From NCBI RefSeq assembly GCF_002778275.1, contig NZ_NESG01000003.1, positions 124,001 to 188,000 of the forward strand: a stretch of 64,000 nucleotides of DNA, given 5' to 3'. This DNA comes from Limnohabitans sp. G3-2 (GTDB lineage: Bacteria; Pseudomonadota; Gammaproteobacteria; Burkholderiales; Burkholderiaceae_C). Shown here piece by piece: positions 5,125 through 19,291 of the stretch; within the stretch, counting starts at the first letter, position 1; each line of letters starts with the position of its first letter. The notes beneath the pieces were generated by a model. The model was not told where the DNA came from. It searched no databases and worked only from the letters and a program-made list of their open reading frames with translations. Made by a program: the position numbers and the translations under genes.

Positions 5125-6069
5125 ATGTTCAAGAAAACTTTCGCTGCTTTGGCCATTGGCCTGAGCTTCACAGCCGCCATGGCGCAAGAAGTCAATTTCG
5201 GCATCATTTCTACCGAAGCCACGCAAAACCTGAAAGCCGACTGGCAGCCCTTGCTGGACGACATGGAAAAGCAAACTGGCCTCAAGGTCAAGGCATTTTT
5301 CGCCCCTGACTACGCCGGCATCATTGAAGGCATGCGCTTCAACAAAGTGCAAATCGCCTGGATGGGGAATAAGTCGGCCATGGAAGCTGTGGACCGCTCC
5401 AACGCAGAAGTATTTGCCCAGATGGTCAACGCCGACGGCACACAGGGCTACTACTCGCACCTGATCGTGCACAAGGACAGCCCCTTGAAGAACCTGAACG
5501 ACCTGTTCAGCAACGCCAAAAATCTGAGCTTCGGCAATGGCGACCCCAACTCGACATCGGGTTTCCTGGTTCCAGGCTTTTATGTGTTTGCCCAAAACAA
5601 AGTGGACGCCAAAACGGCTTTCAAAATCGCACGCAGTGCCAACCATGAAGCCAATGCCTTGGCAGTGGCCAACAAACAAGTCGATGTGGCCACCAACAAC
5701 AGCGAAAACCTGGACAAAATCAAAGAGCGTCAACCCGCCAAGTTCAATGAAATCAAAATCATCTGGACTTCACCTTTGATTCCCTTGGACCCCTTGGTCA
5801 TGAGCAAGAACTTGCCCGAAGCAACCAAGACCAAAATCAAGACCTTCTTTTACAACTACGCCAAGACCGATGCCCGTGAAAAAGACATCGTGATGAAGAT
5901 CTCCAAATTTTCTGGCTTCAAGGCTTCCACCAACGAACAGCTCAAGCCCATTCGTCAGCTGGACTTCTTTGGCCAGCGTAACAAAGTCGAAAGCGACACC
6001 ACCTTGTCTGCCGCTGAAAAGCAAACCAAGCTGGCCGACATCGACCAAAAATTGGCTGCACTGAAGTAA
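5125..6069 (+). CDS. phnD: Phosphonate ABC transporter substrate-binding protein PhnD
   Basis: A 314-residue periplasmic binding protein. The start at 5125 gives a standard signal peptide (MFKKTFAALAIGLSFTAAMA, cleaved before QEV) and has CTGGAG eight bases upstream; a longer open frame from 5008 overlaps phnC and has no signal. The VNFGIIST, SHLIVHKDSPL and FGNGDPNSTSG segments are typical of the PhnD family. In E. coli PhnD binds 2-aminoethylphosphonate and related alkylphosphonates; the exact ligand here is unknown. Confidence 0.92.
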   Translation: MFKKTFAALAIGLSFTAAMAQEVNFGIISTEATQNLKADWQPLLDDMEKQTGLKVKAFFAPDYAGIIEGMRFNKVQIAWMGNKSAMEAVDRSNAEVFAQMVNADGTQGYYSHLIVHKDSPLKNLNDLFSNAKNLSFGNGDPNSTSGFLVPGFYVFAQNKVDAKTAFKIARSANHEANALAVANKQVDVATNNSENLDKIKERQPAKFNEIKIIWTSPLIPLDPLVMSKNLPEATKTKIKTFFYNYAKTDAREKDIVMKISKFSGFKASTNEQLKPIRQLDFFGQRNKVESDTTLSAAEKQTKLADIDQKLAALK

Positions 6070-6087
6070 TTTGACCGCCCTTGATGT

Positions 6088-6131
6088 TGGCTTCGCCGTG
6101 CACCACCTGTGCATGTCGAAGCCACATTTTT
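6088..6131 (+). terminator. Attenuator-like hairpin between phnD and phnE
   Basis: TGGCTTCG (6088-6095) pairs perfectly with CGAAGCCA (6117-6124). An inner stem TGCAC/GTGCA closes most of the interval, and TTTTT follows at 6127-6131. As phnE continues the operon, this is more likely a partial terminator that leaves more phnCD than phnE mRNA. Confidence 0.6.
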
Positions 6132-6172
6132 ATGGACCGCATGTTGGGTCCATTTGATGTGAATTGAGTCCC

Positions 6173-6979
6173 ATGTCCACTGTCACCCATCCCCCACTGC
6201 ACGATTTGGCCAAAACAGCGTCGCCCAAGCGAAGCTTGACTTGGTATTTTTCGTGGGCACTTTTGCTCTTGTTGCTCGCTGCGTCTTGGAAAGGGGCGGA
6301 CATGCGCCCTGCCGAGTTGTTCAGAGACTCGGGCAACATGAGCCAGTACGCCGCCGAATTTTTTCCACCCAATTTCCGGCAATGGCGCATGTACGTGGAC
6401 GAGATGGTCATCACCTTGCAGATTGCTTTGTGGGGCACGGCGCTGGCGGTGGTCACGGCTGTGCCTTTGGCTTTGTTGGCGTCATCGAACATCGTCCCAT
6501 GGTGGGTGTACCAGCCTGTGCGTCGCTTGATGGATTCATTTCGTGCCATCAACGAAATGGTGTTTGCCATGTTGTTCGTCGTGGCGGTGGGTTTGGGCCC
6601 TTTTGCGGGGGTACTGGCTCTGTGGATTCACACCTCAGGCATTTTGGCCAAGTTGTTTTCAGAGGCTGTTGAGGCGATTGATCCACAACCCGTGGAAGGC
6701 ATTCGTTCGACCGGTGCATCGGCCATGCACGAAATTGTGTATGGCGTGATCCCGCAAGTCATGCCGCTTTGGATTTCTTTCACGCTCTACCGCTTTGAGT
6801 CCAATGTGCGTTCTGCATCGGTCGTGGGCATGGTGGGTGCAGGTGGCATCGGGGTGGTGCTCTGGGAAATCATTCGCGGCTTTCAGTACGCCGAAACCTG
6901 TGCCGTGATGCTCATCATCATCGTGACCGTGAGCGTGATTGATCTGGTATCCGCACGCATTCGCCAATTCTTTGTTTGA
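6173..6979 (+). CDS. phnE: Phosphonate ABC transporter permease PhnE
   Basis: A 268-residue inner-membrane permease with about six membrane segments. The ATG at 6173 (MSTVTHPP) is chosen over a TTG nine bases earlier. The EAA-like cytoplasmic loop that docks PhnC is visible in the region [20 protein letters not shown], and [21 protein letters not shown] near the end is characteristic of PhnE-type permeases. It completes the PhnCDE importer. The following HD gene begins eight bases after its stop. Confidence 0.92.
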
Positions 6980-11155: not shown

Positions 11156-12364
11156 TTAGACCGAGAAAGCCAGTGCTGAGACGTCATCGCGACGGGTTTC
11201 TTGGCCACGCCACTGGTCCACCACCGTTTTGGTTTGCATCATCAAGGCCTCAGCGCCCAAATGGCGGTTTGACTCCAAATGCTGCAACAAACGGCGCGGA
11301 CCGAAGGCGCGGCTGTATTCACCACCGGGTTGGTCGAGCACGCCATCGGAGGCCATGAAGAACGTTTGGCAGTTGTCCAAAGGCAATTCGTATTCTTCCA
11401 AAGCCGTGTACGGCACTTGACCGGGATAGCCCAAGGCTTGCTTTTCGCCCAACAAACGGACGATGGACGTGTTTTCTTTGGGAACGATGAAGCAATTGGT
11501 TCGCGCGCCCGAGAAGGACACGGTCTTTTTCTGCATGTTGATTTTGCACAAACCCGCGTCAAAGCCGTCGTTGGACTGGCAGTCTTCACGGTCTTGGTTG
11601 AGCGCGGTGCGCACCAAGTTGCCCAATTTGGCCAGGGCTTCGCCCGGCCCGATATCGGGTTTTTCGGAGTAGATGCGGTTGAGCACGCTCACGACCAACA
11701 TGGACATGAGCGATCCTGGAACGCCATGGCCCGTGCAATCGATCAATGCCAGGGTGAAGCAACCCTCAAAGTCTTCTTCGGTGCGCCAATACACGTCACC
11801 GCCCACCACATCGCGCGGCTCCCACAAAACACCCACCGAGCGCAGACCGTCTTGCAGCGCAACACGGTTGGGCAACAAGCTCGATTGGATGCGACCGGCG
11901 TAGTTCACGCTGTCCATCATTTCGGTGTGCAGTTCGGCCAAGGCTTCTGCCCGTGCATGGTTGGCCTCCACCAGGTAGTTGAGCATGTCGGTGTTGATGC
12001 CGATGCCGGCATATGCCCCGTTTTCGGTGATGAGAAAACCACCTGTGCTCAGGGACAGACCCATTTCCAACATTTTTTGCGACGCCACGTCGATGCTGGT
12101 TTCGATGTCAAAAATCGGAAAGACTTCTTGCACCAGCATCTTGGCGCTGCGGTTTTGGTACACCGAGAAGTGCAACGGGTTCGACGCTGTGGACAACGCC
12201 GATTGACGGTCAATCAGGCCAATGGCTTGTTTGTTGGCGGTAAAGACGGGCACGACCAACAGGTCATCGTCTTTTCTGAAGTTGGCGATGATGACACCGC
12301 ACTTTTCAGTTTCAAGAATGCCCTCTTGCTGGCGCAAGATGGATCGGACTTTTTGCTCAATCAT
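11156..12364 (-). CDS. PP2C/SpoIIE-type phosphatase with N-terminal CBS-like domain (SiaA-like role)
   Basis: A 402-residue cytoplasmic protein. The first 140 residues look like a CBS pair: VPVFTANKQAIGLIDR early and GGFLITENGAYAGIGIN late. A linker with LLPNRVAL leads to the SpoIIE/PP2C domain, whose metal-site motifs are VVGGDVYW, DCTGHGVPGSLMSML, ASDGVLDQ and the terminal RRDDVSALAF. In Pseudomonas aeruginosa SiaA, a PP2C phosphatase, dephosphorylates SiaC; the position beside siaB and siaC suggests the same reaction. SiaA is a membrane receptor, whereas this protein has no membrane segment, so the signal must be internal. It overlaps the cyclase gene by eight bases. Confidence 0.85.
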   Translation of the reverse strand: MIEQKVRSILRQQEGILETEKCGVIIANFRKDDDLLVVPVFTANKQAIGLIDRQSALSTASNPLHFSVYQNRSAKMLVQEVFPIFDIETSIDVASQKMLEMGLSLSTGGFLITENGAYAGIGINTDMLNYLVEANHARAEALAELHTEMMDSVNYAGRIQSSLLPNRVALQDGLRSVGVLWEPRDVVGGDVYWRTEEDFEGCFTLALIDCTGHGVPGSLMSMLVVSVLNRIYSEKPDIGPGEALAKLGNLVRTALNQDREDCQSNDGFDAGLCKINMQKKTVSFSGARTNCFIVPKENTSIVRLLGEKQALGYPGQVPYTALEEYELPLDNCQTFFMASDGVLDQPGGEYSRAFGPRRLLQHLESNRHLGAEALMMQTKTVVDQWRGQETRRDDVSALAFSV

Positions 12365-13397
12365 GGGACTGGATTCCTTCTAAAGTGTTGGCCATATCGC
12401 GAAGACGAGCCACGAGGCTCAAACGGTCGGGCATGGACAAGTTGCCGGGTTTGATGATCATTTTGTCCAGGCCCTTTAAATCGAGGCGTAATTCAGAGGT
12501 GTGTGAGCGGTTGGTGTCGCTCACTTTGACGACGGCATAAGTTTTCACAGGCAAGGCAATGCCTTTGAGTTCCAACAAATCGCGCTCAGACACCTCCACA
12601 AAATCCTTCACTTGTGCGTAGGTCTCGTGCGAAATCAAAACGCCACCAGGTTCACATTTGCTTTCAATTCGGGCGGCCAAATTGACCTCGCCACCCAAGA
12701 TGGTGTACGCCATGCGACTGTGGCTACCAAAATTGCCCACATTGCAGTAACCCGTGTTGATGCCGATGCGCGTGATGAAGGGGTGTTGCAGACCTTCGCG
12801 CTCCCACTGGATGTGCAACTCTGCCAAGCGCTCCTGCATTTCGTAGGCCATGCGCACGCAGGCCAAGGCGTCTTCTTGGGGGCCACGGCTGTCTGGATCG
12901 CCAAAAAAAACCATCATCGCGTCACCGATGTATTTGTCGATCGTGCCCCCGTACTTGGCGGCGATGTCGGACATTTCCGAAAAGTACGCGTTGATGTAGT
13001 GGGTCAAGACCTCAGGCTGGATGACCGAGGAGATGTGCGTGAACCCTTGGATGTCTGAGAAAAATACGGTCAGCAGTTTTCGTTGGGTTTTGATTTCCAA
13101 GGACTGGTCGCCTTTGAAAATCGAATCGTAAATTTGCCGGGGCAAATATTTCGCCAACTGGTCGGCCACGCCTTCCAGTTTTTTCTTCTCAATTTCCAGC
13201 TCATCTGAAACGGCCTGAAGGCGAAGCTCATTCCTGTCGCTGATCCGGATCATGCGTGAAAAGTTTTTCAGCAATCGGCCGTAATCAGCAATCAGTTTGG
13301 CATAGACATCAGGCGTGACCTGCTCAGGCGTATCGGTCAGAAGTTTTTCGCTTTCGATCAATACCGACTGTTCTTTGGCCAAAAAAGAATCGGTCAC
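12357..13397 (-). CDS. Class III adenylate cyclase of the Sia-like operon
   Basis: A 346-residue protein starting with GTG, with AAAGG five bases upstream. Residues 55-100 look like a coiled coil or signalling helix. The class III cyclase domain (about 105-275) carries metal-binding Asp115 (FFSDIQGFT) and Asp159 (IGDAMM), base-selecting Lys155 and Thr232, and catalytic Asn239 and Arg243 (VNLAAR). Lys plus Thr predicts ATP rather than GTP as substrate, so the product should be cAMP. A basic tail of 70 residues follows. In P. aeruginosa this operon position is held by SiaD, a diguanylate cyclase. It lies 19 bases after siaC. Confidence 0.88.
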   Translation of the reverse strand: MTDSFLAKEQSVLIESEKLLTDTPEQVTPDVYAKLIADYGRLLKNFSRMIRISDRNELRLQAVSDELEIEKKKLEGVADQLAKYLPRQIYDSIFKGDQSLEIKTQRKLLTVFFSDIQGFTHISSVIQPEVLTHYINAYFSEMSDIAAKYGGTIDKYIGDAMMVFFGDPDSRGPQEDALACVRMAYEMQERLAELHIQWEREGLQHPFITRIGINTGYCNVGNFGSHSRMAYTILGGEVNLAARIESKCEPGGVLISHETYAQVKDFVEVSERDLLELKGIALPVKTYAVVKVSDTNRSHTSELRLDLKGLDKMIIKPGNLSMPDRLSLVARLRDMANTLEGIQSHD

Positions 13398-13416
13398 GCC
13401 AGCCTTTCAGTGAGGT

Positions 13417-13797
13417 TCAAAAAGCCACCATGGCGAACTCGGCTTTGTCGAGTTCTTCCGCGAACTCTTCACCCAGTTCTTGCATGTTGTCGTCGTCAGA
13501 GGCGTAGTGCCATTCGATTTTGAATTCGTTGCCACGGGCTGCGGATTCTTCGACCGCCATGAACAAGTCCATCAGCACTTTGGCCGATGAGCTGTTGAAA
13601 TACTTGAGCTTGAAGGAGAAGACCGCTTTGACATCCACCTTCGTGTCCAAAAAACTGTAAACATGGGACAAGGGGGTGTCGTAAAACTTCTTGGTGTCCT
13701 CAGGGTATGACTCACCCTCGAGCACAAAAACGCCAGTGGCAGGGTCAAAGCTCAAATGGGGTGTGCGTGCAGTGGCTGCGATGTCGATTTTTTCCAT
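13417..13797 (-). CDS. siaC: SiaC-family regulatory phosphoprotein (DUF1987)
   Basis: A 126-residue protein with the hallmarks of DUF1987: TPHLSFDPATGVFVLEGESYPED, then YFNSSSAKVLMDLF and an acidic C-terminal helix. In P. aeruginosa SiaC is phosphorylated on a threonine in the equivalent NTSS segment by SiaB, dephosphorylated by SiaA, and in its free form binds and activates SiaD. Here that segment reads Asn68-Ser-Ser-Ser, so a serine would be the phosphate acceptor. The start MEKIDI is chosen because eleven earlier residues would overlap the end of siaB. It is 11 bases from siaB and 19 from the cyclase. Confidence 0.88.
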   Translation of the reverse strand: MEKIDIAATARTPHLSFDPATGVFVLEGESYPEDTKKFYDTPLSHVYSFLDTKVDVKAVFSFKLKYFNSSSAKVLMDLFMAVEESAARGNEFKIEWHYASDDDNMQELGEEFAEELDKAEFAMVAF

Positions 13798-13808
13798 GTC
13801 GGACTCTC

Positions 13809-14438
13809 TTAAAAGTAGGCTTCGAGGCAAAAGAATGTGAACTCACCGTCCGGCATGGGGACCATGTCGTATTCCCAGTTGCCATTGGCTTCGCGTGCAA
13901 TGGAGATGAAACCCACACCTGCCCCCTTGGAGCCTTCGGGCGGGCCGGCCTTCAGATGCTCGCGCATCAAGGTGGTCAGTTCTTTGCGGTTGAGTCCGCG
14001 AATGCTTTCAAGCGACGCAGAAACACGCTCGACGTTTTCGTTTTTGATGAGGTTGGCGCAGGTGACGAAGCGGGTGCCGTCGGGTGTTTCGCCGATGGTG
14101 ATCAGACCGTAACGGAGTTCGCCGTCGTCCACTTCATTTTCCGAGCGCCCCTCCGCCAACGCGGCCTCTCGCTCTAATTTGGCACGCTCTTCAGGGCCAA
14201 TCGTCTCGGCCGAATAACGGATGACGTTTTGCACTTGCTCTACAAAGGTAGAGAAGATGCCGCGCGAGATTTTTTGGTCCGTTTGGTCAATGGCCATCTT
14301 GCTTTGCAAGGCATTGCCAATGCCAGACAAGATGCTCTCATTCAAATAACCGCAATAGGAAAACACGATGCCCCGTGATTCCAATTGATGGCGAAGCTCC
14401 AAGAAGGAGGCGCCGTTGAGCTTGTGTGCAGTTGACAT
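13809..14438 (-). CDS. siaB: SiaB-family protein kinase (DUF6272)
   Basis: A 209-residue cytoplasmic protein and first gene of a four-gene operon. It resembles SiaB, a small kinase with a GHKL-like ATP fold that phosphorylates SiaC. FVEQVQNVIRYS looks like the N-box helix and GSKGAGVGFISIARE the glycine-rich lid. The short open start MSTAHKLNG and a promoter about 50 bases upstream fix the start. Together with siaC, the cyclase and the PP2C phosphatase it forms a kinase/phosphatase switch. Confidence 0.82.
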   Translation of the reverse strand: MSTAHKLNGASFLELRHQLESRGIVFSYCGYLNESILSGIGNALQSKMAIDQTDQKISRGIFSTFVEQVQNVIRYSAETIGPEERAKLEREAALAEGRSENEVDDGELRYGLITIGETPDGTRFVTCANLIKNENVERVSASLESIRGLNRKELTTLMREHLKAGPPEGSKGAGVGFISIAREANGNWEYDMVPMPDGEFTFFCLEAYF

Positions 14439-14470
14439 GGGTTGATCTCATAAACAATGAAGACCCATCA

Positions 14471-14515
14471 AATTTAATTGTCAAAAATGACACGAAGGTG
14501 AAGGGGATATGTCAA
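14471..14515 (-). promoter_or_regulatory. Pho-box-like promoter of the siaB operon
   Basis: Read on the minus strand, TTGACAT ATCC CCTTCAC CTTC GTGTCAT spans 14515-14487 with an 11-bp period. The inner pair scores about 11 of 14. TAAATT follows ten bases later at 14476-14471 (four of six against TATAAT). Confidence 0.45.
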
Positions 14516-14580
14516 AAATAATATGCCCATCTCCTCAGACTGGGCCGTCATGGGACACGTTCGCGCAAGCCTTGTGGCAG

Positions 14581-14647
14581 TCGACAAAAAGCGAAGCCTG
14601 CGCATCCCGGGCTTGTCCATCGACAAAAATCCCAAGGATGCGCAGGC
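14581..14647 (-). terminator. Terminator of the minus-strand phoX gene
   Basis: GCCTGCGCATCC (14596-14607) and GGATGCGCAGGC (14636-14647) form a perfect 12-bp stem with a 28-base loop. On the minus strand the stem is followed by TTCGCTTTTTG (T-run 14590-14586). TCGACAAAAA occurs both before the stem and in the loop. Confidence 0.6.
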
Positions 14648-14681
14648 TGATCTGACAGCGGTGTCAGGCCGGTCCCTGACT

Positions 14682-16907
14682 TCACAGACCGATCACACCA
14701 CCATCTGTGCGGGTGATCACGATCGTGGCCGAACGGGGGCGACCGGCTTGGCCATAGCCTTGGTTGCCCGGCCACATGCTTTGGGGTGCTTGGCCCGAGG
14801 ACAAAGGCTTGGACAGTTCACCCGGATGCTGGATGTTCACGAACAAAGTGCGGCCATCTGCGGTCTCGGTGATGCCAGTGACTTCTGCGCCCTTGGGGGC
14901 CACCAAAAAGCGGCGAAGTTTGGCTTCTCCCAAAGCCGCACCCACAAAGGTCTCTTGGGTGCCGGATTGCGCCACGCCACCCACCACCATTTTGTTTTTC
15001 ACGGTCACTTTGCCGCCGTCGCCCACCTGGCCCGGAATGGCCGCCAGCATCATGCAGTTGGTCTCGTCGGTCATGGCGCCATCGTCGGTTTGGATCCAGC
15101 AAATGCCAGTGGCCTTGCTGAACCACAAGCCGTCTGGGGAGGAGAACGCATTTTTGGCCGTGAGTCCGGAGATATTGGCGTCGCCCGCATCTTCTTCTGC
15201 GCCAAACAAGAAGATGTCCCAAGCAAAGGCTTTGGCGCTTGACTTGTTGTCGGCTTCTTTGAAACGGATGATGTGGCCATTGGGGTTGCCCATGCCTTTG
15301 TTGCCATCCAGGTCCATGTAAGCACGTGGGTTGGCCGCGTCCACTTGGGTGGGAGTGCGGTTGGCAGCATTGTTGTTGGTCAATGCGAAATAGATTTCGC
15401 CATTGCGGTGGTTGACAGCGCCCCACTCCGGACGGTCCATCTTGGTGGCACCCACCGCATCGGCGGCCAAGCGGGCGTTGACCAGCACATCGCCCTGATT
15501 GGAAAACTTGTAGGCACTGTGGTTGGCAATGCGCGGGTCGGCGATGTTCAACTCCAACCATTCGCCTTGGCCTGTGGCGTCAAAACGGGCCGCATACAGC
15601 TTGCCTTCGCTCAGGTATTTGTCGCCGGCCAACATGCCGCCGCCCACATCGCGGGGATCCCAGACGGCGGTGCTCACGAACTTGTAGATGTATTCGTTGC
15701 GCGAGTCGCAGCCCATGTAAAACGCCAAAGGCTCGCCCGCCTTGGGCACGCCACAAACAGCGGCTTCGTGCGCGAAGCGCCCCATGGCCACACGCTTGGC
15801 GGGTGTGGCGTTGGGGGCCAGCGGATCGATCTCAAAGTTGTAGCCAAAGGTGTTGGCTTCGTTGCGGAAATCACGCTCGGCATTGGCACCGGTGGCCGCC
15901 AGGTTCCAACGGGCGAAACGGTCGTCGGTGGCCGATACGGTGTGCCAGCCTTGGCTGATGGCTTTTTGCACACCCGCCGCAGGAGCGGCCGATGCAACGC
16001 CATAACGGCGGCGAGCAGCGACTTCTTTGGCAGACAGCCCCGTGCCTGTGCCTGTGGCCTGGAAATAAAACGCCCAGTTTTCTTCGCAACCCAAATAGGT
16101 GCCCCATGGGGTTTTGCCATGGCCACAGTTGTTCAAAGTGCCGCGCGACATGGCACCGGCAGTGTCCCAGCGTGTGACCATGAAGCTGCGAATTGCATCG
16201 ATGTGCGCGCGGGGGCCGCTGATGCGCGCAGGCGTTTGGGCGGTGAAGCGGCGGTTCAGCGGTGAGTCTTGCTTGATGCGCCAGCCCTGAGGGGTTTTGA
16301 CGATCTCCACCACAGAAATGCCGTGGTGGTTGATTTCTTTGAGCACTTCCAATTCCGGGCGTGAACCCAAGTCCCAGGACCCAAACTGGTCAAATTTCTT
16401 GCCACTCACGCCATTGGACGTCTGACCGTTGGGGTGCATGAAATGCGCGTCGGCAGAGCTCTCGTGGTTCACACACAGCACGGCACGGCCTGTTTCTTTC
16501 TCGGAGTAGCGGCCGTTGGCGTCGATGTAATAAATGTCCATGCCATCGTGGTGATCGCCCACCCGGCGCGACCAGTCGTCGGCTTCGGTGCCCTTGTTGG
16601 AGTAAGCGGCCAAGGCCGAATCGAGCGCATCGCCTGTGGCGTGCAAAACGCTGTACTGGTAACCAGGCGGCAGCATCACGTTGTCGAGCAAACTCTTTTC
16701 GACAGAGGGGAAACCCAAAGCCGATGGCGAAGCCGCCATGCCCGAAGTCAAGCTGGCACAGCCTGGCAGCATGGCCAGACCTGCCAAACCCAGACCACCG
16801 CGCAACAAACCGCGGCGGGCGGGGTTGTGCAGCGATTGGGCCAAGACGTCTTGGAAATGGGGGTTATCAGACGTGTTGAAAACATCATCGGCATGGTTGT
16901 GCGACAT
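14682..16907 (-). CDS. phoX: PhoX-family Tat-exported phosphatase (copy 1)
   Basis: A 741-residue protein of the PhoX/DUF839 family, alkaline phosphatases with a Ca/Fe cofactor exported folded by the Tat pathway. The Tat signal is NPARRGLLRGGLG (Arg31-Arg32), with Cys50 in LPGC as a possible but atypical lipidation site. Family motifs are DHHDGMDIYY, WGTYLGCEEN (with the Cys that binds iron in characterised PhoX) and the terminal RPRSATIVITR. The ATG at 16907 is preferred because AAAGGTG precedes it. It diverges from a second phoX-like gene, each with a candidate Pho box. Confidence 0.88.
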   Translation of the reverse strand: MSHNHADDVFNTSDNPHFQDVLAQSLHNPARRGLLRGGLGLAGLAMLPGCASLTSGMAASPSALGFPSVEKSLLDNVMLPPGYQYSVLHATGDALDSALAAYSNKGTEADDWSRRVGDHHDGMDIYYIDANGRYSEKETGRAVLCVNHESSADAHFMHPNGQTSNGVSGKKFDQFGSWDLGSRPELEVLKEINHHGISVVEIVKTPQGWRIKQDSPLNRRFTAQTPARISGPRAHIDAIRSFMVTRWDTAGAMSRGTLNNCGHGKTPWGTYLGCEENWAFYFQATGTGTGLSAKEVAARRRYGVASAAPAAGVQKAISQGWHTVSATDDRFARWNLAATGANAERDFRNEANTFGYNFEIDPLAPNATPAKRVAMGRFAHEAAVCGVPKAGEPLAFYMGCDSRNEYIYKFVSTAVWDPRDVGGGMLAGDKYLSEGKLYAARFDATGQGEWLELNIADPRIANHSAYKFSNQGDVLVNARLAADAVGATKMDRPEWGAVNHRNGEIYFALTNNNAANRTPTQVDAANPRAYMDLDGNKGMGNPNGHIIRFKEADNKSSAKAFAWDIFLFGAEEDAGDANISGLTAKNAFSSPDGLWFSKATGICWIQTDDGAMTDETNCMMLAAIPGQVGDGGKVTVKNKMVVGGVAQSGTQETFVGAALGEAKLRRFLVAPKGAEVTGITETADGRTLFVNIQHPGELSKPLSSGQAPQSMWPGNQGYGQAGRPRSATIVITRTDGGVIGL

Positions 16908-16930
16908 GGGTACACCTTTCAAAAATAACC

Positions 16931-16964
16931 ATTGGATGTGAGTTCGGTGAAGAAATGATGACAA
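16931..16964 (-). promoter_or_regulatory. Candidate PhoB box of phoX copy 1
   Basis: On the minus strand TTGTCAT CATT TCTTCAC (16964-16947) is a 7-4-7 repeat, with a strong first arm and a weaker second. TCCAAT lies ten bases further on at 16936-16931 (four of six). Confidence 0.5.
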
Positions 16965-17077: not shown

Positions 17078-19291
17078 ATGTCCAACGACATGAACAACCC
17101 GTCCGTTCACTTTGAAGATGTGCTGAAAAAAGCCATCGACAACCCCGCTCGCCGCAACATTTTGCGTGGTGGCTTGGGCCTAAGTGCCCTGTCCTTCTTA
17201 GGCCTGGCAGGTTGCGGCGGAGACACCATTGTGAATGCAGCGGCCAACCCAGCCAATGCCCTCAATTTCACAGCCACGCCATTGAATCAAAGCTACGACG
17301 GCGTATCCGTCGCCAACGGGTACAAAGTTGAGTTGTTGTACAAACTCGGCGACCCGATCAATGCCACCACCTCCGCTTATTTGAACAATGGCAGCGAAAC
17401 ACCCGCGTCGTTTGATTTTCGCTCTGGCGATCACCACGATGGGATGTACTTTTTCGGTATGGGCAGCAACAGCAAATGGAGCGAAAGTGTTTCGGACAAA
17501 GGCATTCTGTGCATCAACCACGAAGCCATCACGCCTTTGTTTTTACACGCCAATGGACCAACCCCTGCGACGGGTAACCGCACCGTGCCCGATGAAGTTC
17601 AAAAAGAGTTCCGCCTGCACGGTGTGAGTGTGGTGGAAGTGAACAAGGTCAATGGTGCGTTCCAGGTCAACCTGGCTTCCCCATTCAACCGCCGCATCAC
17701 CACCTTGACCCCGATGGACATCGCCGGACCTCTGCGTGGCCACGACTTGCTGAAAACCAAGTACTCGCCCACCGGCGTCATGACACGCGGCACGGTCAAC
17801 AACTGCGCCTCGGGCTACACCCCTTGGGGCACCTACCTGACTTGCGAAGAAAACTACGCGGGTTATTTCAAGCGCAGCAACGTGACGGGCCGCAGCCCCA
17901 ATGAATTGGCCAGCGAAGCTCGCAATGGTCTCACCAGTTCATCTGGGCGCGAGCGTTGGACTTCGGTGAGCACAGCGGACGATGACTACAACCGCTGGGA
18001 CATCACCATCACCGGTGCAAGTGCTGCCGATGATTTCCGCAATGCGGGCAACACCTACGGTTTCAACGTGGAAATCGATCCGTTTGCAAGTGGCAGCACA
18101 CCCAAAAAACGCACGGCCATGGGCCGCTTTGCGCACGAAGGCGCTTGGGTTGCCCCCGTCACTGTGGGCAAGCCTGTGGTGTTTTACATGGGCTGTGATT
18201 CGGAAGGCGAATACATCTACAAATTCGTTTCTGCAAACAACTGGAGAGCATCGGACATCAACGGCGGATTGGCAGCAGGTGACCGGTATTTGGACGCTGG
18301 CAAGTTGTATGTGGCCAAGTTCAATGAAAACTTCACGGGTCAGTGGTTGGAATTGACCGTGAGCTTGAGTGGCACGGTCTCTGCGCCTTCTTCGACCACA
18401 TTCACCTTCGGTGACGCATCCGACCCTTACCTCAACACACGTTTGTGCGCAGACAAAGTGGGCGCCACCAAAATGGACCGTCCTGAGTGGGGAGCGGTGA
18501 ACCCAGCCAATGGTGAGGTGTATTTCACACTCACCAACAGCCGAAGCAAGCGCCCCGTTGCAGACACCAATGCATCCAACCCACGTTCTTACACAGACAA
18601 TGCTTCGGGTACAGGCAGCACCGCAGGAAACTGGAACGGTCACATCATCCGCTGGCGCGAGAACAACAGCAATCCTGCGGCGCTGACATTTGACTGGGAC
18701 ATCTACGTTTTTGGTGCTGAAAGCGATGACCTGAACAATGCCAACGTGAACCTGTCGGGTTTGACCGCCGAGAATTATCTGTCGAGTCCTGATGGTTTGT
18801 GGTTCTCGGAAAAGACCGGCATCATGTACATCCAGACCGATGACGGCCAATTTACCAACGAAACCGACGGCCAAGGCACGACGTGCATGCTTTTGGCGGC
18901 CATTCCCGGTCAAGTGGGCGACGGCAGTTCTGTCGCTGTTGTCAACACCGTGGGCGCAGCAACACAGACCGTCACCACCCGCGTGGGCAAAGTGGGCCAA
19001 CTCAAGCGTTTGCTGACTGGGCCACTTGATTGTGAAATCACTGGCATCACCGAAACCCACGATGGCAAGGCCCTGTTCATCAACATCCAGCACCCAGGTG
19101 AGGGCACAGGCAGCTCGTCTTACCCGGGAACGTCTATCAGCAATCCTGTCAGCAGCTGGCCTTACAGCAGCACCGGTAATGGCAACCCCGCCACGCCCAC
19201 CACCGCCAAAAGCGGACGTCCTCGTTCGGCGACCATCGTGCTGACACGCATCGACGGCGGTGTGATTGGCACCGACTTCACCTTGTCTTGA
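17078..19291 (+). CDS. PhoX-family Tat lipoprotein phosphatase (copy 2)
   Basis: A 737-residue paralogue of the divergent phoX gene. The Tat signal NPARRNILRGGLG (Arg25-Arg26) is followed by a perfect lipobox, LAGC, at Cys46, so the mature enzyme is probably a Tat-exported lipoprotein. The motifs DHHDGMYFF, WGTYLTCEEN and RPRSATIVLTR are conserved. Compared with copy 1 it carries Ser/Thr/Asn-rich insertions (for instance around residues 425-450 and 685-710), suggesting different surface or substrate properties. CAGGAG precedes the start and a strong terminator follows. Confidence 0.88.
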   Translation: MSNDMNNPSVHFEDVLKKAIDNPARRNILRGGLGLSALSFLGLAGCGGDTIVNAAANPANALNFTATPLNQSYDGVSVANGYKVELLYKLGDPINATTSAYLNNGSETPASFDFRSGDHHDGMYFFGMGSNSKWSESVSDKGILCINHEAITPLFLHANGPTPATGNRTVPDEVQKEFRLHGVSVVEVNKVNGAFQVNLASPFNRRITTLTPMDIAGPLRGHDLLKTKYSPTGVMTRGTVNNCASGYTPWGTYLTCEENYAGYFKRSNVTGRSPNELASEARNGLTSSSGRERWTSVSTADDDYNRWDITITGASAADDFRNAGNTYGFNVEIDPFASGSTPKKRTAMGRFAHEGAWVAPVTVGKPVVFYMGCDSEGEYIYKFVSANNWRASDINGGLAAGDRYLDAGKLYVAKFNENFTGQWLELTVSLSGTVSAPSSTTFTFGDASDPYLNTRLCADKVGATKMDRPEWGAVNPANGEVYFTLTNSRSKRPVADTNASNPRSYTDNASGTGSTAGNWNGHIIRWRENNSNPAALTFDWDIYVFGAESDDLNNANVNLSGLTAENYLSSPDGLWFSEKTGIMYIQTDDGQFTNETDGQGTTCMLLAAIPGQVGDGSSVAVVNTVGAATQTVTTRVGKVGQLKRLLTGPLDCEITGITETHDGKALFINIQHPGEGTGSSSYPGTSISNPVSSWPYSSTGNGNPATPTTAKSGRPRSATIVLTRIDGGVIGTDFTLS

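Follow-up and report, generated by a model that had tools for sequence, protein, structure and literature searches.

A SiaB-SiaC phospho-switch probably wired to a soluble class III adenylate cyclase in Limnohabitans

What does a SiaB-SiaC phosphorylation switch control in a bacterium in which siaC is followed by the gene for a class III cyclase, rather than by one for a diguanylate cyclase? The question is raised by a four-gene operon of the freshwater bacterium Limnohabitans sp. G3-2, which lies in a stretch of 64,000 nucleotides (contig NZ_NESG01000003.1, positions 124,001 to 188,000; hereafter the window) of a 3.25 Mb draft genome with 25 contigs and a completeness of 100. The operon is read from 14438 to 11156 on the minus strand, and its genes, namely siaB, siaC, the cyclase gene, and a PP2C phosphatase gene, are separated by 11, 19, and -8 bases; an earlier note, made from the sequence alone, had described one tight operon with these very spacings. 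We think it quite probable that these genes form a partner switch of the SiaABC type, in which unphosphorylated SiaC would dock on, and activate, a soluble class III adenylate cyclase, leading to the formation of cyclic AMP (cAMP).

13809..14438, minus strand: siaB-like Ser/Thr switch kinase of the SiaB family (DUF6272), 209 amino acids, PF19788 at 1e-31
13417..13797, minus strand: siaC, STAS-like phosphoprotein, 126 amino acids counted from the ATG, PF09345 at 2e-35
12357..13397, minus strand: predicted class III adenylate cyclase with a putative N-terminal SiaC-docking stalk, 346 amino acids, GTG start, Guanylate_cyc (PF00211) at 3e-27
11156..12364, minus strand: soluble PP2C phosphatase with a SiaA-type catalytic domain, 402 amino acids, SpoIIE PP2C (PF07228) at 8e-21

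The kinase passed the NCBIfam SiaB-family model NF038262 (150.2 bits, cut-off 85), and its best PDB relative by sequence is 6kko_A (4e-12), in whose alignment E67 falls on Glu61, the residue predicted to be catalytic in Pseudomonas aeruginosa SiaB (PMC7647112). SiaC passed PF09345 (121.8 bits, cut-off 24.5) and has 6k4f/6kko as its best PDB relatives by sequence, and the SiaC fold was seen in the structure prediction for its relative L122. While we count the protein from the ATG, its longest open reading frame (ORF) is opened upstream, by a TTG at 13830. The acceptor block, N67 T68 S69 (NTS) in P. aeruginosa SiaC, is represented here by N68 S69 S70 (NSS):

13591..13593, minus strand: codon of SiaC Ser69, the phospho-acceptor position, aligned with Thr68 of P. 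aeruginosa SiaC

The evidence that carries the proposed wiring resides first of all in the N-terminal part of the cyclase:

13122..13397, minus strand: stalk region of the cyclase, residues 1-92, helical, matched by the stalk models and by the SiaD model NF038266
13227..13256, minus strand: core of the putative SiaC-docking motif, R48-E57 (RMIRISDRNE), matching SiaD contact residues

The cyclase, to which the earlier note had given a helical linker, has an N-terminal helical stalk bearing the core SiaC-binding motif (RISDR) of SiaD, the GGDEF protein of the P. aeruginosa system. In the SiaC-SiaD crystal (7e6g), SiaC contacts R74, K77, V78, R80, I81, S82, D83, and R84 of SiaD, as well as Y85, Q86, M88, R90, and D91, and phosphorylation of SiaC at T68 blocks SiaD binding (PMC8457831). 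R51, I52, S53, D54, and R55 of the cyclase are identical to R80, I81, S82, D83, and R84 of SiaD, and R48, M49, and E57 substitute for K77, V78, and Q86, respectively. On the SiaC side, Y31, Y65, N67, S69, M75, L107, and E110 of the P. aeruginosa protein are conserved in the window SiaC, and T68, D114, and D29 show conservative changes. Among the cyclase rows, S53 is conserved in 37 of 38, D54 in all 38, and an Arg or Lys occupies position 55 in all 38.

The cyclase stalk is also recognized by profiles built without any cyclase. Our main hidden Markov model (HMM) was made from 54 SiaC-adjacent stalks of GGDEF, HD-type, and histidine kinase proteins, all lying at most 463 bases from siaC (51 of them within 300). 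This model matched the window cyclase at E 7e-14, as well as 38 of 38 SiaC-adjacent cyclase rows (the weakest, L181, at E 5e-4), and it matched none of five non-adjacent cyclases (best E 7.3) and no other ORF of the window (413 ORFs including the cyclase; next best E 3.4). Models drawn from a single output class, comprising 22 GGDEF, 14 histidine kinase, and 15 HD-type stalks, reached the window cyclase at E 1e-8, 3e-10, and 4e-13, respectively; each recovered 37 of 38 cyclase rows below 1e-3, with control cyclases scoring no better than E 1.8 and the remaining window ORFs no better than 1.5. Further, positions 32-139 of the NCBIfam SiaD model NF038266 match residues 9-122 of the cyclase (E 0.0015), and a mixed stalk profile, cyclases included, found SiaD (7e6g_A) as its top match in the PDB (E 3.4e-10).

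Stalk and SiaC occur together. In the Limnohabitans sp. G3-2 genome, the stalk profile gave exactly two matches, one being the window cyclase and the other a cyclase encoded on contig C4. Both genes adjoin a siaC, and the two remaining class III cyclases, whose N-termini look receiver-like by eye, lack the stalk. Across 60 genomes of the genus, SiaC and the stalk were both found in the same 10 genomes and neither was found in the other 50 (Fisher 1e-11, relatedness ignored). In the order, SiaC was found in 55 and the stalk in 36 of 349 genomes, and SiaC is present in 35 of the 36 stalk-positive genomes, the two scans having apparently been made on one genome draw with at most 14 stalk candidates scored per genome. 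In G226, the stalk-positive genome without SiaC, the stalk match lies at bases 61-330 of its contig.

Covariation at the interface was examined by comparing corrected mutual information in crystal-defined contact columns with that in entropy-matched random columns, in a set that is small and in which relatedness is partly handled. For 107 SiaC-stalk pairs (effective 67), the contact columns gave 0.018, as compared with 0.004 for random SiaC columns (fraction as high, 0.0015) and -0.002 for random stalk columns (fraction as high, 0.000). The covariation was weaker in the 38 cyclase pairs alone (effective 22) than in the full set, with fractions of 0.020 for random SiaC columns, 0.0185 for random stalk columns, and 0.006 for both; the corresponding fractions were 0.002, 0.000, and 0.0045 without the cyclases (69 pairs), and 0.000, 0.033, and 0.000 without the GGDEF loci of the order survey (75 pairs). 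When partners were shuffled within their output class, five trials gave 0.0009-0.0056, which is much weaker.

A profile search of the genome found no GGDEF and no EAL match, the same searches having found matches in 8 and 6, respectively, of 14 genomes as controls, and the switch is therefore unlikely to work through a diguanylate cyclase. The earlier claim that a cyclase replaces the diguanylate cyclase as the output agrees with both the PF00211 neighbor and the GGDEF search. Eight of the ten SiaC-positive genomes of the genus likewise gave no GGDEF match, some of them being incomplete, and the other two (G002 and G406) gave one each. Collectively, the SiaD core motif, the co-occurrence and adjacency, the interface covariation, and the GGDEF search make it likely, as far as sequences can tell, that SiaC acts on the neighboring cyclase, which is the wiring that the earlier note had proposed.

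The operon shares with P. aeruginosa SiaABCD (6kko, 6k4e, 6k4f, and 7e6g) a homologous kinase, phosphoprotein, and PP2C phosphatase, a conserved core docking motif on the output protein, and the arrangement in a single operon. It differs in having a class III cyclase as the output where SiaABCD has the GGDEF protein SiaD, a soluble phosphatase with a predicted CBS pair where the other is membrane-bound, and an acceptor serine where the other has a threonine; the phosphatase gene, moreover, stands last here. The operon would work like SiaABCD, but with an output that is no GGDEF protein, a phosphatase that is no membrane protein, and scores below the cut-offs of the narrower equivalog models (given below), it belongs by its sequences to the wider SiaB/SiaC switch and falls outside SiaABCD as strictly defined. 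Two other partner switches, HsbA-HsbD of P. aeruginosa and BgrV-BgrR of Sinorhizobium (named in PMC8457831), are alike in that a second-messenger enzyme is modulated by a STAS-fold protein, which is itself controlled by a kinase and a phosphatase; their STAS proteins are different ones, and their output is cyclic di-GMP (c-di-GMP).

We envisage that SiaB would phosphorylate SiaC on Ser69, and that phospho-SiaC would be unable to dock, while the PP2C phosphatase, gated by its N-terminal CBS pair, would dephosphorylate it; the CBS pair would probably bind an adenine nucleotide or another cytoplasmic metabolite. Unphosphorylated SiaC would dock on the stalk of the cyclase, at its RISDRNE motif, and clamp the pair of helices into a parallel coiled coil, and the clamped stalk would hold the cyclase homodimer in an active arrangement, leading to cAMP. 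We infer the physical docking, its direction (activation), the cAMP product, and the CBS ligand, and it is by analogy with SiaD that unphosphorylated SiaC would control and activate the cyclase.

Several observations weigh against this mechanism, and the alternatives have to be judged alongside them. The proteins fall below the cut-offs of narrower models, with 65 against 225 for the kinase (NF038264), 86.7 against 150 for SiaC (NF038265), and 167.8 against 700 for the phosphatase (SiaA equivalog NF038263), and the cyclase scores 18 against 290 bits with the SiaD model NF038266, far below its cut-off and mostly in the stalk part. At the interface, the SiaD contacts R74, Y85, M88, R90, and D91 are not conserved in the cyclase; I71, D79, R103, and Q10 of P. 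aeruginosa SiaC are lost from the window SiaC; and the cyclase has one docking motif where SiaD has two. A structure model of a SiaC-stalk fusion reached a predicted template modeling score (pTM) of 0.55.

The alternative that survives best, which we nonetheless regard as unlikely, is that SiaC docks on the cyclase but restrains it, with the free cyclase (SiaC being phosphorylated) as the active form. The evidence for docking is symmetric as to sign, and class III cyclases are able to dimerize unaided. Against restraint, a parallel stalk would presumably suit a cyclase homodimer as well, and the same docking activates SiaD by stabilizing a dimer with parallel stalks (PMC8457831).

We consider it improbable that the stalk is an ordinary coiled-coil signaling linker, with a likeness to SiaD that is merely that of a generic helix, and that the operon is a neighborhood without direct contact. 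Signaling helices that join outputs are a known theme, and designed coiled coils and other helical proteins occur among the stalk-profile matches: the runner-up to SiaD with the mixed profile is a protein named designed coiled coil (4e-4), and with a profile of 22 cyclase stalks alone, SiaD came second (E 0.0094), with a designed coiled coil ahead of it (0.0055). Part of the score is therefore that of a generic helix, and one of the five within-class shuffles still stood at 0.01 against random SiaC columns. However, none of the five non-adjacent cyclases, two of them REC-type enzymes of this genome, gives a score; the stalk co-occurs with SiaC; S53, D54, and the basic residue at 55 are conserved almost throughout; and the covariation is much weaker once pairs are shuffled within their output class.

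Slightly more doubtful still is an arrangement in which the main target of SiaC is different and unlinked, and the cyclase is merely co-expressed. Twenty of the 55 SiaC-positive genomes of the order gave no stalk match among the candidates scored, so that SiaC probably can act otherwise too and probably has other targets somewhere, and in G234 the stalk protein lies 1.48 Mb from SiaC. In Limnohabitans sp. G3-2, however, the two cyclases are the only stalk matches and no GGDEF protein was found, and every SiaC-positive genome among the 60 of the genus also gave a stalk match.

As to the product, the cyclase passed PF00211 (96 bits, cut-off 21.9), and its closest solved catalytic domain by sequence is that of P. 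aeruginosa CyaB (3r5g, 1e-64). CyaB has a membrane part, whereas the window cyclase has no membrane segment (highest 19-residue hydropathy 1.24) and bears the putative SiaC-docking stalk at its N-terminus. The catalytic residues that had been read from the sequence earlier (D115, K155, D159, T232, N239, and R243) are all present, and none of the six varies across the 38 rows of a stalk-cyclase alignment, in which the window and some genomes are entered twice and from which L181 (weak stalk, short ORF) is excluded. We take D115 and D159 to be the metal residues, K155 and T232 the adenine pair, and N239 and R243 the transition-state residues; the predicted adenine selectivity is read from K155 and T232 only. 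That the product is cGMP instead of cAMP is very improbable: class III enzymes of both kinds have a common fold, but the pair Lys155 and Thr232, which is of the adenine type, is identical in every row.

A possible recipient of the cAMP was sought among the seven matches to cyclic-nucleotide-binding domains in the genome. Two adjoining proteins of this kind at C20:90713-91296 (L200 and L205), some 8 kb away from the gene of a receiver-type cyclase, form a candidate cAMP receptor. One of the seven, a short protein at C20:91045, contains FGEQAML..IRGATA, which resembles a PKA-type phosphate cassette, as does the short member of the adjoining pair, and the E. coli Crp cassette is absent from the six other cyclic-nucleotide-binding proteins read. 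The genome has a second siaB-siaC-cyclase-PP2C operon at C4:4608-8133 (L017), whose siaC and cyclase are 38% and 48% identical, respectively, to those of the window and whose phosphatase has an N-terminal part that is longer and different; this operon may be a second cAMP switch, insulated from the first.

Other genomes show the arrangement as well. The survey of genomes for siaC adjoining class III cyclases, which the earlier note had called for, found the cyclase as the next gene in 28 of the best 80 named loci among at least 277 confirmed SiaC loci, a biased sample, in that 9 of the 10 rows of the SiaC query alignment came from cyclase-linked loci. These cyclase-linked loci come from Limnohabitans, Curvibacter, Ruegeria, Stappia, Methyloceanibacter, Granulosicoccus, Pseudodesulfovibrio, Magnetococcales, and others, with many metagenome bins among them, and the SiaC-cyclase arrangement recurs in many Proteobacteria. 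The closest SiaC proteins among the named loci listed are those of the Limnohabitans loci L118, L119, and L120 (90-94% identical), and a search of a plasmid collection with the cyclase and SiaC returned relatives of less than 60% identity.

At least four kinds of output, the cyclase among them, are joined to this stalk. Classified by profile and by the presence of a stalk, the best 80 loci comprise 27 with a cyclase, 16 with an HD-type protein, 16 with a histidine kinase, 5 with a GGDEF protein, and 16 in which these criteria gave no stalk neighbor; the last group includes L181 (a cyclase with a weak stalk) and L176, L190, and L192, in which the stalk motif is visible (L176 also has HATPase_c). 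A Pfam scan of ten SiaC neighbors found 3 GAF-HD_5 proteins, 6 with HATPase_c, and 1 Guanylate_cyc. Among 69 loci from the genus and the order, the linked output is a cyclase in 10, of which 8 belong to the genus, and a GGDEF protein in 32; the other 27 have no detected stalk neighbor, and one of these (L060) contains a stalk cyclase interrupted by the contig end. L028, a partial SiaC at a contig end, was left out of the class counts, and some genomes are repeated, L018 being the window locus itself and L019/L120, L020/L118, and L021/L119 being pairs.

The acceptor position of SiaC is Ser in 39 of 39 cyclase-linked rows and Thr in 20 of 37 GGDEF-linked rows, with L060, L181, L176, L190, and L192 placed by hand in the cyclase or histidine kinase class for this count and for the SiaC tree. 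On that tree (108 rows), which has few columns and several long branches and omits both L018-L021 and the loci without a stalk neighbor, a minimum of 10 changes is required to account for the cyclase label, or of 3 counting well supported branches only, and the output has therefore probably been exchanged more than once. Loci with GGDEF, GAF-HD_5, or histidine kinase neighbors share with the window the same SiaB-SiaC pair and a kindred N-terminal stalk, and differ in the output domain. We hold it fairly probable that SiaC is a general phospho-regulated clamp and the stalk a portable domain which, in Proteobacteria and outside them, has been wired to cAMP and c-di-GMP synthesis, to phosphodiesterases of the HD type, and to histidine kinases, with two separate, possibly insulated, SiaC-cyclase pairs and no recognizable diguanylate cyclase in the present genome. 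A portable stalk with exchangeable outputs is a stronger point than the single case.

On the usual view, a second-messenger enzyme is wired through a sensor domain of its own. In the present case, a single Ser/Thr phospho-switch seems to serve as a front end that can be exchanged among outputs, be they cAMP, c-di-GMP, or a phosphorelay. The switch offers a candidate regulator for a set of soluble cyclases without a visible sensor domain, and its short docking motif would let the partners of DUF1987/SiaC proteins be predicted from genomes. Limnohabitans sp. G3-2 is, in addition, a natural example of a bacterium that keeps a switch familiar from c-di-GMP signaling and has no recognizable GGDEF protein. 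According to a suggestion in the SiaC-SiaD paper, the modulation of neighboring proteins is common among DUF1987 proteins; no word beginning with adenyl occurs in its main text (PMC8457831). In the titles, abstract openings, and passages that make up our partial coverage of the literature, no link of SiaC/DUF1987 to the control of an adenylate cyclase was found, and an earlier mention is possible.

The stalk is fused to GAF and HD_5 in L133, L142, L144, and their relatives, mostly Magnetococcales, and to histidine kinases in L158, L167, and their relatives (Azospirillum and others); neither fusion was met in the literature examined. L027, L079, L093, L094, and L104 contain SiaC, SiaB, and PP2C but no stalk protein; next to the cluster comes a conserved gene whose product starts with an SQSRVRHSDIE-like sequence, and SiaC may have a target of another kind in these loci. 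A tandem pair of siaC genes is found in a Sulfuricella metagenome-assembled genome (L129, 3404-4190), and in genome G129 (L103, about 6047-6835) siaC is followed by further partial SiaC matches.

The input to the window operon would enter through the phosphatase, which has a putative sensor region:

11960..12364, minus strand: predicted CBS pair at the phosphatase N-terminus, about residues 1-135, AlphaFold2 predicted local distance difference test (pLDDT) 86, pTM 0.70

The best PDB relative of the phosphatase is the PP2C entry 6k4e (1e-35), whose GGD, DCxGHG, DGxLDQ, and RDD blocks it conserves; the entry itself reads putative serine phosphatase, and we call it SiaA after PMC7647112. The enzyme is soluble, as had been claimed, with no hydrophobic segment (highest 19-residue hydropathy 1.34). 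The CBS-like domain ascribed to it is supported by the predicted fold, which among the 50 PDB matches listed found mostly CBS-pair proteins, and by 11 of 15 aligned phosphatase N-termini, which matched PF00571 at E up to 0.05, but a Pfam scan of the window phosphatase itself gave no CBS (PF00571) match. The fold matches listed include AcuB with AMP, ADP, or ATP, CBSX2 with AMP, and DarB with cyclic di-AMP, so that an adenine nucleotide is a plausible input according to the structure model.

Phosphate input through a Pho-box-like promoter, which had been suggested as well, found no support: a two-repeat consensus pattern (at most 3 mismatches) is unmatched in 14440-14680, and it has 8 matches in the whole window as compared with 4.2 expected. 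A CRP-type operator was discarded likewise, with 1 match in the window against 2.2 expected. A promoter scan of the gap upstream of siaB detected nothing; a comparison of five upstream regions revealed one short, partly conserved element, which has no promoter-like match:

14481..14492, minus strand: conserved upstream element TGTCATTTTTGA, 43-54 bases before the siaB ATG, 7 of 12 columns identical

Directly upstream of the operon lie two divergent genes for similar-looking proteins (14682-16964 and 17078-19291), which look PhoX/DUF839-like, and this neighborhood may be the origin of the phosphate idea.

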